This document shows positions 44,530 through 60,289 of a stretch of 64,000 bases of DNA, piece by piece. The notes below the pieces were generated by a model that was given only the letters and a program-made list of their open reading frames with translations, searched no databases and had not been told where the DNA came from. Positions within the stretch are counted from its first letter, which is position 1; each line of letters begins with the position of its first letter. The stretch comes from Pseudacidobacterium ailaaui (GTDB lineage: Bacteria; Acidobacteriota; Terriglobia; Terriglobales; Acidobacteriaceae). Both the position numbers and the translations under genes were made by a program. The stretch spans positions 2,015,001 to 2,079,000 of the forward strand of contig NZ_JIAL01000001.1 of NCBI RefSeq assembly GCF_000688455.1. Direction: 5' to 3'.

Positions 44530-44634
44530 GGACTGGCCGTCCGGACGGCTGCCGGTCTGTAGCGCAGTTGGTGGACGAGTAAAAATGCCTTCAGTGGCTG
44601 CGCCTTTGCGCAGACATGATGGGGAGAGAAGACA

Positions 44635-50908: not shown

Positions 50909-51013
50909 GGCTTACCATTTCGGCAAAGCGCCCTGCGGGGCAATTGACTACCCTCCGTAACGGTATACGGCTGATGCCACTCCGAGACCGGAGAAGAAAG
51001 AGAAGAAGCAAAC

Positions 51014-51768: not shown

Positions 51769-51900
51769 GGACGACGCGCCCTGCGCGATGCGTCTGCGAC
51801 GTAAACAAATTCTGACTGGTTGACGAAGAAGTCAACGGTCACAAACCATTCCCGCAGGTTCTCTGGGAATCCGGAGCGAACGGGGGATGAAGGAGAAACG

Positions 51901-52299
51901 ATGAGTTTTACCGATCCGGTAGCAGATTTTCTGACGCGTCTGCGCAATGCGATTCATGCGCGTCATCAGAAGCTGGATGTTCCGGCCTCAAAGCTGAAGA
52001 CGGAGATTGCCCGCATCCTTAAGGAAGAGGGCTATATCGCCAACTACAAGACCTCGGAGGAAAATGGCCGGGCTGTTCTGCGCGTGTACCTGAAGTATGG
52101 GGCAAACAACGAGGCTGCCATCCGGGACCTCACCCGTGTTTCCCGTCCGGGTTGCCGTGTCTATGTTGGCCGGGATGAGATCAAGCGTGTCCAGGGTGGT
52201 CTTGGCATCAACATTCTCACCACTCCTCGGGGGGTGATGACCGGCAAGCAGGCCCGCAAGGAAGGCGTGGGCGGCGAAATTCTCTGCGAAGTCTGGTGA
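51901..52299 (+). CDS. rpsH: Ribosomal protein S8
   Basis: 132 aa from ATG 51901 with AAGGAG upstream; the 27 codons open before it lie in the hairpin-rich spacer. DPVADFLTRLRNAIHARHQKLDVPASKLK and TPRGVMTGKQARKEGVGGEILCEVW are intact. In E. coli S8 represses the spc operon; no equivalent binding site was recognised. The longest spacer of the cluster (259 nt) follows. Confidence 0.98.
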   Translation: MSFTDPVADFLTRLRNAIHARHQKLDVPASKLKTEIARILKEEGYIANYKTSEENGRAVLRVYLKYGANNEAAIRDLTRVSRPGCRVYVGRDEIKRVQGGLGINILTTPRGVMTGKQARKEGVGGEILCEVW

Positions 52300-52390
52300 T
52301 TCTTGCCGGGACTGCGCACAACGCGCCAGAGTCACGCTTGGGCGCACTTCGGCCGGCTGCATCGGATGCTTGCAGAGGAATCGGTGCAGG

Positions 52391-52531
52391 ATGCGCGGAG
52401 TGAAAGCCGCGCGTGGAACGGGTAAAAGCACTGGACTTTTCGTCCGGTGATGAAGGTAGAGAGGGCTTTGGCCCCTAAGGCGGGCATGACCCGCCGGAGC
52501 TGCAGTGGAACGGATGGGCCAATCTCATCCG
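52391..52531 (+). ncRNA. Hairpin array in the rpsH-rplF spacer (possible structured leader)
   Basis: Successive stems in 141 nt: 391-398/407-414 (8 bp, one G-U), 430-436/442-448 (7 bp, one G-U, loop TTTTC), a weak bulged stem 462-466/471-476, 479-484/490-495 (GGCGGG/CCCGCC, perfect) and 511-516/526-531 (CGGATG/CATCCG, perfect), offsets from 52000. No open frame with family features overlaps it. A cis-acting RNA is the simplest reading; no known family is recognised. Confidence 0.35.
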
Positions 52532-52558
52532 GGACTCGCAAGCCATAAGGATTCAAAA

Positions 52559-53098
52559 ATGTCACGTATTGGAAAAAAGCCGATTCCATTGCCCCAGGGA
52601 GTCAAGTACTCCGTTCAGGGCAATGTTGTGGTTGTGGAGGGCCCCAAGGGGAGGCTCGAACAGCGGATTCCGGAAGGGATCAAGCTGCTGACCAAGGACG
52701 GTCACATCGTCGCAGAGCGCGAAAGTGAGGCGCAGGCAGCCATTCACGGACTTACCCGTGCCCTGGTCGCCAACGCGGTCGAAGGTGTGACCAAAGGATG
52801 GTCCAAAGACCTCGATATTGTCGGCATCGGTTACCGCGTCGAGATGAAGGGCAAGGACACGGTGGTCTTCACGCTGGGGTATTCGCACCCGATCGAGTTC
52901 CCGCTGCCATCAGGCATCACCGCTGCCATTGATCCAAAGCAGACCCGCATTACCATCAGCGGCATTGACCGTCAGAAGGTCGGCCAGGTGGCCGCCGACA
53001 TGCGTGCACTGCGCAAGCCTGACCCGTACAAAAACAAGGGTGTGCGCTATGCGGATGAGAAACTGAAGAAGAAGGCCGGAAAGGCCGGAGCGAAGTAG
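52559..53098 (+). CDS. rplF: Ribosomal protein L6
   Basis: 179 aa from ATG 52559, fixed by homology ([30 protein letters not shown]). Two repeated L6 domains; [56 protein letters not shown] completes the second. The last residues are Lys/Ala-rich. Confidence 0.98.
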
Positions 53099-53140: not shown

Positions 53141-53210
53141 CAAAGGCCGGTGGCTGATTCAACCGAACGTGGCCGCAGGGCGGCCCCGCTTTTAGGAAGG
53201 ACGAAAGACC

Positions 53211-58370: not shown

Positions 58371-58527
58371 AAACGCCAGGCAGGACCAGGAAGTGGTGGG
58401 GCTAGTTAGCCGGGAAAGGCTTGCGATGAACCCCATGGTCCATTCATGCCTGGAACCACTGCCGTGCTCGAAGAGGGCGGCATAACTGCTCCGGAGCAGT
58501 CGGGAGCATTTCTTAAAGAAGGGAACC

Positions 58528-58914
58528 ATGGCACGTATTGCAGGCGTTGATCTGCCCCGCCAAAAGCAGGCCAGGATCGCGCTCACTTACATCTACGGCA
58601 TCGGGAACCCTCGCGCGCTGAGAATTCTGGAAAAGGCGAACGTGGATCCGTTCAAGAAAATCCAGGACCTCGGCGAAGACGAGGTCAACCGCATCCGCCA
58701 GGTCATCGAAGACGAAGGCGCGGTCGAAGGCGACCTGCGCAAAGATGTCGCGATGCACATCAAGCGGTTGATTGACATTCAGTCCTATCGCGGACTGCGG
58801 CACCGCCGCAGCCTCCCGGTGCGCGGACAGCGCACACATACCAATGCCCGCACCCGTAAGGGGCCGCGTAAGGGCACGATAGCGAACAAGAAGAAAGCGA
58901 CGGCGAAGACCTAA
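58528..58914 (+). CDS. rpsM: Ribosomal protein S13
   Basis: 128 aa, [37 protein letters not shown] and [36 protein letters not shown] are intact. The stop overlaps the rpsK start (TAATG). Confidence 0.98.
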
Positions 58915-59330: not shown

Positions 59331-59510
59331 GCAGATCAACGCTGCGGACCCTGCAGCTACGATAAAATCCGGGCATGGGGACAAAACATCCTCATGCCTG
59401 CAAACCAGCAGGCAGGCGATCCAGGCAAATGCCGATCGCGGCCTGTGGACTGGGACGAAGCGCCTGCCAGCGCGTAAACCAGTCGGCCCCGAAATGGAAG
59501 GAGAAAAGAA

Positions 59511-60140: not shown

Positions 60141-60289
60141 AAGTAACAGGACCTTGTGCGTTCGTCTCTGCTGGAAGCAGCCTCATCCATCGGGGACAAA
60201 CGACTGAAACAAACACTCTTGAAGGAGAGAAAACAGACGTAGACATTGCAGAGTGCTTCGCAGGTCACGTCAGGAAGAAGCGAAACGAT

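Follow-up and report, generated by a model that had tools for sequence, protein, structure and literature searches.

The described systems closest to the locus considered here are the S8 operator of Escherichia coli and the ribosomal leaders that Eckert and Weinberg predicted in 2020. In E. coli, the spc operon is regulated by ribosomal protein S8, which acts at one site, located at rplE and very similar to the S8 site of 16S rRNA (PMC10931766). The same 2024 review calls spc control in Bacillus subtilis, or in species beyond E. coli and Vibrio, unknown, and L6 does not figure as an autogenous repressor in the portion of it considered here. Table 1 of Eckert and Weinberg (PMC7247131) has 20 motifs, none of them for rplF or for Acidobacteria, and the strings 'rplF' and 'Acidobacteri' are absent from the main text of that paper. 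Acido-1 (RF01686) and Acido-Lenti-1 (RF01687) are acidobacterial, but the relevant portion of their description rates them as not cis-regulatory (PMC2864571).

Here we describe an RNA hairpin, E3, that lies just before rplF in a window of 64,000 nucleotides (the whole stretch of DNA analysed) from Pseudacidobacterium ailaaui. There is strong support for E3 as a new structured RNA that is specific to one lineage. We found no description of it in the main text of open-licence PMC papers, and nothing matches it in the portions considered of PMC2864571, PMC2704228, PMC11109978 and PMC6429828. With a probability of about 0.68, we read E3 as a ribosomal leader through which a ribosomal protein would exert feedback on rplF; the binding and the repression we infer.

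The rpsH-rplF spacer and its hairpins

In the window, rpsH ends at 52299 and the ATG of rplF begins at 52559. The intervening 259 nt had been singled out in the original prediction as the largest gap of the cluster, and both the coordinates and a comparison of the 32 gaps measured from fusA to rplQ agree: it is the longest, followed by rpmJ-rpsM (201 nt) and rpsK-rpsD (180 nt). The features of the spacer are as follows.

52300..52558, + strand: rpsH-rplF intercistronic spacer, 259 nt, bounded by the gene ends
52429..52449, + strand: upstream hairpin CACTGGAC-TTTTC-GTCCGGTG, from folding and sequence
52463-52474: hairpin GGGC-TTTG-GCCC, a stem in the spacer sequence
52479..52495, + strand: P0 hairpin GGCGGG-CATGA-CCCGCC, directly 5' of E3, with a hairpin of at least 5 bp near E3 in relatives
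52498..52544, + strand: E3, conserved element of 47 nt, from comparative and folding evidence
52499-52506 with 52534-52543, + strand: P1 of E3, with bulges at 52537 and 52540
52507-52510 and 52532-52533, + strand: internal loop of E3, GGAA/GG in the window sequence
52511-52531, + strand: P2 of E3, apical stem and loop, covarying
52547..52552, + strand: Shine-Dalgarno-like AAGGAT, open when 87 nt are folded, paired in part when longer pieces are
52559..53098, + strand: rplF (L6), the gene under control if the leader reading is right

The five or six stems first noticed in this spacer are present, but they are unequal: those on the 5' side vary in sequence and number among relatives, and a nearly invariant core is confined to the last hairpin. 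The TTTTC-loop stem of that prediction, CACTGGAC-TTTTC-GTCCGGTG, has 8 bp including one G-U. The hairpins upstream of E3 carry two-sided changes in 12 of 17 predicted pairs in an alignment of 15 near relatives that does not include the window, a count that stands without a shuffle control. A hairpin of at least 5 bp ending no more than 5 nt from E3 occurs in 61 of the 79 spacers long enough to test (mononucleotide shuffles: mean 24.5, largest 34), and the sequence of the hairpin at the P0 position is free among relatives. The 5' hairpins are the less specific part of the stem array.

Folded as a whole, the spacer has an ordinary stability (z = -1.57, with 13 of 200 shuffles equally stable), as does its opposite strand (z = -1.49), and because this stability is not unusual we do not use it as evidence; the last 87 nt of the spacer are moderately stable (z = -2.07, 8 of 200 shuffles). 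It is the comparative evidence, and not the folding of a single sequence, that is decisive for E3. The impression that no known family matched is borne out by Rfam 15, which at gathering thresholds gives no match to any family in the whole window; with E values up to 10, the segment 52200-52700 gives two matches, both far below threshold, to snoZ119 (E 4.2) and ZFAT-AS1_1 (E 3).

In the minimum-energy fold of the 87-nt piece 52476-52562, P0 is followed by E3, and both the Shine-Dalgarno sequence and the ATG are open. Within E3 of the window the terminal bases 52498 (A) and 52544 (C) are unpaired. All eight P1 pairs form in this piece and in a piece of 163 nt; in the minimum-energy fold of the whole spacer, P0 and P2 form with none of the eight P1 pairs, and the P1 pair probabilities are 0.31-0.71. 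The probability that the Shine-Dalgarno sequence is unpaired is 0.33-0.89 in the whole spacer and 0.26-1.0 in the 163-nt piece. The open Shine-Dalgarno sequence therefore holds for the short piece only, since it is partly paired in the longer folds.

Conservation, covariation and distribution of E3

Relatives were collected in two sets, one from a search with the spacer DNA (61 genomes, of which 20 loci were kept) and one from a search with the L6 protein in a named genome collection, from which the best 80 of 549 L6 relatives were kept, a sample that leans toward near relatives. The loci of the L6 search carry names such as Acidobacteriaceae, Acidobacteria, Granulicella, Edaphobacter, Terriglobus and similar, with one Rhodanobacteraceae. 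Together with the window, these 100 loci gave 101 rpsH-rplF spacers, and 97 after four duplicates (L001, L030, L035 and L063) were dropped. The spacers range from 13 to 326 nt. At some loci (L064, L088, L089, L091, L098-L100 and others), parts of this spacer and of neighbouring ones are occupied, outside the cores, by inverted repeats (CACTGATCACTG and TAGCTTCTAGC are examples), and these look like dispersed repeats.

With carriers called by fuzzy anchors of up to four substitutions each, E3 stands just 5' of rplF in 82 of the 97 non-duplicate spacers and is absent from 15. The lower stem and the internal loop (GGCUGCAGUGGAA / NGACUCGCAAGCC) are nearly invariant; P2 above them is free in sequence and keeps its pairing. 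The pattern in relatives is GGCUGCAGUGGAAC, a variable stem-loop of 8-51 nt and then GNGACUCGCAAGCC, the left core having perfect letters in 73 of 82 carriers; 52 of the 82 have GGGACUCGCAAGCC as their right core and 20 have GCGACUCGCAAGCC. Among relatives P1 pairs GGCU-GC-AGU with ACU-C-GC-A-AGCC, with a single bulged C and a single bulged A, and the internal loop is GGAA/NG.

The original prediction hinged on whether the stems are conserved among relatives; those of E3 are, and P2 covaries. The first three P2 pairs are standard in 82, 80 and 79 of 82 rows, respectively, and the second and third each occur as several types of pair. Whereas these pair counts use all 82 rows, covariation was assessed on 50 of the 64 distinct sequences with an apical part of 8-22 nt (65 of the 82 rows). 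In these 50 sequences the 14-pair structure has 95.9% of its cells paired, against 83.8% in shuffled alignments, with 85 two-sided-change cells against 24.0 and a covariation score of 0.292 against 0.072, and for each of the three measures none of 500 shuffles reaches the observed value. Structures slid by one to three columns give at most 38.5% paired cells, 27 two-sided cells and a score of 0.081. Two further measures do not stand out, the number of pairs with two-sided change (5 vs 4.0 shuffled, 38 of 500 as high) and the number of further pair types (19 vs 17.7, 140 of 500 as high), and both have little room to do so because only five P2 pairs vary. RNAalifold, unaided, yields the identical fold for E3. 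Over the first five P2 pairs there are 22 G-U against 9 A-C, and this excess favours an RNA of the + strand, that of rplF.

P1 shows almost no covariation and rests on complementarity and invariance, because its pairs hardly vary. In one weak relative (L012, 16.6 bits) the pair C6-G8' has become A-U, and the pair A7-U6' is broken in that locus and in L009.

The covariance models of Rfam gave no match at gathering thresholds, and our own model, R2, gave a single match in each matching genome. At the level of the class, 81 of 399 genomes match, and 79 of these (all except G309 and G394) belong to one family, f1, whose named relatives are Acidobacteriaceae. Among 396 genomes of the phylum there are 38 matches, 37 of them in f1 and one (G475, E 0.096) inside a reading frame. 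The weak matches in G309, G394 and G475 were rejected as chance: all lie within reading frames, with no rpsH or rplF in the flanking 1.1-1.2 kb. In the G394 assembly neither the L6 protein nor rplF was detected, and because L6 was not found there the lack of E3 in this genome is uninformative. At least 20 of the f1 genomes listed are without a match, and the class search has 298 further no-match genomes beyond those listed, figures to be read with the stricter filters of large searches in mind, which can lose weak matches. Each of the best 30 R2 matches is flanked by rpsH and rplF (30 of 30).

A tree of the S8 and L6 proteins was built from 95 rows (81 carriers and 14 non-carriers; L012 and L025 were left out, as one protein is cut in each). 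On this tree two changes suffice to explain the carrier label (shuffles: 13.4), and 80 of the 81 carriers form one clade with a support of 99 and no non-carrier inside; L009 is the only carrier outside it. In this sample, leaning as it does toward near relatives, the tree is compatible with a single origin of E3 and no loss inside the clade. In viral contigs, 20 stretches match GCAGTGGAAC..GACTCGCA, where a rough estimate of the chance expectation is some tens; none has the outer CT..AGC stem letters, and we rejected them as candidates.

The analysis shows that E3 is structured and covaries, matches once in each matching genome, keeps a fixed position and is conserved within one family; it is very probably a structured, cis-acting RNA. 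The covariation, the single match per genome, the fixed position adjacent to the ribosome-binding site and the lack of an Rfam match at gathering thresholds together give good support to the suggestion of a new leader RNA here.

Possible feedback on rplF and candidate ligands

As a member of the class of ribosomal leaders, E3 has a conserved secondary structure that covaries in P2 only, P1 being nearly invariant, and a consistent position directly 5' of a ribosomal protein gene in 82 of 97 spacers. The distance from the end of E3 to the start codon of rplF is 12-21 nt in all 82 rows, and AGG or GGA lies within this linker in 76 of the 82. A sequence-specific hairpin beside the ribosome-binding site is compatible with control by steric block upon binding of a protein. 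E3 would then be a cis-acting mRNA element inside the spc operon. Without its ligand, rplF would be translated from its own start beside the E3 hairpin; an operon-encoded ribosomal protein present in excess over rRNA would bind the internal loop and lower stem, perhaps stabilising P1. As E3 ends a few bases 5' of the Shine-Dalgarno sequence, the bound protein could sterically block the loading of the 30S subunit, and less L6, and perhaps less of the products of the genes downstream of rplF, would be made. Our confidence in the leader reading was lowered from 0.7 to 0.68 because P1 and the open Shine-Dalgarno sequence depend on the length that is folded.

As the ligand we tentatively put forward L6, with the odds somewhat against it. 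We rank L6 first and S8 second because E3 abuts rplF and a different element precedes rpsH. By position L6 is the simplest choice, but Eckert and Weinberg, in the portion of their paper considered here, caution against taking the nearest gene as a guide (PMC7247131). L6 is described as contacting helix 97 of 23S rRNA and the sarcin-ricin loop (PMC4199504), and in a comparison of E3 with these contacts we saw nothing alike. A cmsearch with R2 of five rRNA loci (the readable part of the organism's own 23S rRNA, and the 16S and 23S regions of two genomes of f2, another family of the order) gave no significant match that would indicate mimicry, the best having 12.2 bits and E = 0.31.

It is unlikely, though not greatly so, that E3 is instead an S8 operator whose site has moved to the 3' side of rpsH, with S8 repressing rplF and the genes downstream. 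The attraction of this reading, beyond the role of S8 in the E. coli operon, lies in the letters: the S8 core of 16S rRNA, described as A595.(A596-U644), (G597-C643).641 and A642 within residues 595-598 and 640-644, has A596-G597-U598 and N641-A642-C643-U644 where E3 has AGU and GACU, and even an RNA that lacks the conserved motif can be bound by S8 (PMC4176348, from the portion on the S8 core). Judged by eye against helix 21 of relatives, E3 keeps letters equal to 16S positions 596-597 and 642-644 but not A595, and it has extra bases on the 5' side with respect to the S8 core. In the 16S core, position 598 pairs with 640; in E3 this partner of U598 is absent, the base being mostly G or C. Set by eye against helix 21 of 16S rRNA (from relatives and from E. 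coli) and against helix III of 5S rRNA, E3 has partial letter matches only. Further against S8, the R2 model has no significant match in the 16S loci searched, a different element (E2) precedes rpsH itself, and E3 precedes rplF, not rplE, where the E. coli site lies and where here a different element, E1, stands.

Improbable, too, is a role for E3 without any ribosomal protein ligand, as a processing or stability element, that is, an RNase site or a barrier that sets the half-life of the rplF mRNA. The stoichiometry of gene products can be tuned through mRNA processing, and several hairpins in a row between two cistrons would suit such a role; a nearly invariant internal loop beside a freely varying stem, however, is the pattern of specific recognition and not of a generic hairpin, and the position of E3 beside the Shine-Dalgarno sequence is fixed. 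Trapping of a mobile or REP-like repeat in the spacer, which the stretches of inverted repeat (e.g. CACTGATCACTG or TAGCTTCTAGC) in the spacers of some relatives might suggest, is highly improbable, as it is contradicted by the single R2 match per matching genome and by its place before rplF in 30 of the 30 loci checked; moreover, P2 covaries and the invariant core is free of the repeat-like stretches. Finally, the chance that the conservation reflects coding sequence, be it a short separate frame or extra N-terminal codons of rplF, is negligible: in the window a GTG-started frame (52505-53098) does cover the greater part of E3 and continue into rplF, but, in keeping with the absence of coding potential noted originally, none is conserved, since the lengths of the apical part (26 lengths, 8-51 nt) and of the linker (8 lengths, 12-21 nt) vary by non-multiples of three and no reading frame is kept across E3, the conservation tracking stems and not codons.

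Other elements of the cluster and comparison with known systems

The leader reading of E3 can be set beside seven further spacers of the S10-spc-alpha cluster with conserved structures of their own.

44588..44624, + strand: sister element before rplC (L3), conserved motif, covariation
50953..50993, + strand: E1, before rplE (L5), conserved and covarying, core AACGGUA..CCGNNACCG
51847..51889, + strand: E2, before rpsH (S8), conserved and covarying, core GGUU..CGAACG
53162..53196, + strand: E4, before rplR (L18), conserved and covarying, core CCGAACG..CGC..UAGG
58398..58434, + strand: sister element between rpmJ and rpsM, conserved motif, covariation
59448..59484, + strand: sister element before rpsD (S4), conserved motif, covariation
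60242..60266, + strand: sister element before rpoA, conserved motif, covariation

For each spacer of the spc part we counted the loci that share its commonest 8-mer: 94% of 78 for rpsH-rplF, 78% of 74 for rpsN-rpsH, 74% of 76 for rplF-rplR, 39% of 71 for rplX-rplE and 6% of 72 for rplR-rpsE. The conserved motifs before rplC, rpsM, rpsD and rpoA were seen in 20 longer regions and the window. All eight spacers covary, in that none of 200 shuffles reaches the observed number of two-sided changes in any of them, in alignments of 14-73 sequences that also served to derive the structures scored; counted by pairs, two-sided changes are near the shuffled mean for E3 (5 vs 4.0), rplC (5 vs 5.0) and rpoA (5 vs 4.3). 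The conserved cores of the eight spacers differ from gene to gene.

Searched with strict motif expressions, the carrier clade has the elements of rplC in 20 of 20 regions, rplE in 19 of 21, rpsH in 19 of 21, rplF in 20 of 21, rplR in 20 of 21, rpsM in 11 of 18, rpsD in 6 of 18 and rpoA in 14 of 14; for rpsM (11/18) and rpsD (6/18) further copies that the strict expressions miss are visible by eye. The corresponding figures for 20 regions without E3 are 7/19 for rplC, 4/20 for rplE, 5/20 for rpsH, 0/20 for rplF, 0/19 for rplR, 0/19 for rpsM, 6/19 for rpsD and 0/18 for rpoA. The rplC, rplE, rpsH and rpsD element types thus occur also in some genomes without E3. Not every long gap holds an evident element, because rplW-rplB (134 nt) and rpsC-rplP (131 nt) are less conserved: neither has comparable 8-mer conservation, the top 8-mers being found in 4/21 and 9/21, respectively.

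Before rplF itself, another possible element, B (AGACGAG-stem-CCGGAAGCCC), was seen at four loci (L175, L190, L193 and L194) from four genera without E3. A search of 299 genomes with the element B pattern gave matches in 67, a raw count of hits at scattered places.

The different conserved structures in the seven further spacers suggest gene-by-gene control. In the Acidobacteriaceae, at least eight spacers may each have their own element near the ribosome-binding site, with L6 (via E3), S8, L5, L18 and others each governing its own cistron and no single repressor of the operon, an arrangement that we consider possible but on balance doubtful. Different elements in one cluster would offer a natural experiment in how the stoichiometry of ribosomal proteins is achieved without a single master repressor. 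E3 itself is a small and precisely bounded RNA that is suited to in vitro tests, and should L6 prove to be its ligand, the known autoregulators would gain one more ribosomal protein.

Among known systems, the Rfam family Alpha_RBS (RF00140) gives a sub-threshold match that spans the rpsM start of the window (58483-58560; 20.9 bits, E = 0.37, against a gathering score of 38); this is the gene expected for that family, and the match is not to E3. We presume that this match may rest on shared rpsM coding sequence. The S8 operator of the E. coli spc operon resembles E3 in being intercistronic, inside spc and beside a start region, and the E. coli repressor, which acts on ribosomal protein genes downstream, is encoded by the operon. 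E3 differs from it in standing before rplF, in having no significant similarity to the rRNA searched and in being one of several different elements. With the leaders of Eckert and Weinberg (PMC7247131), as presented in the portion of that paper considered here, whose ligands are likewise putative, E3 shares its restriction to a lineage, its covariation and its place directly 5' of a ribosomal protein gene.
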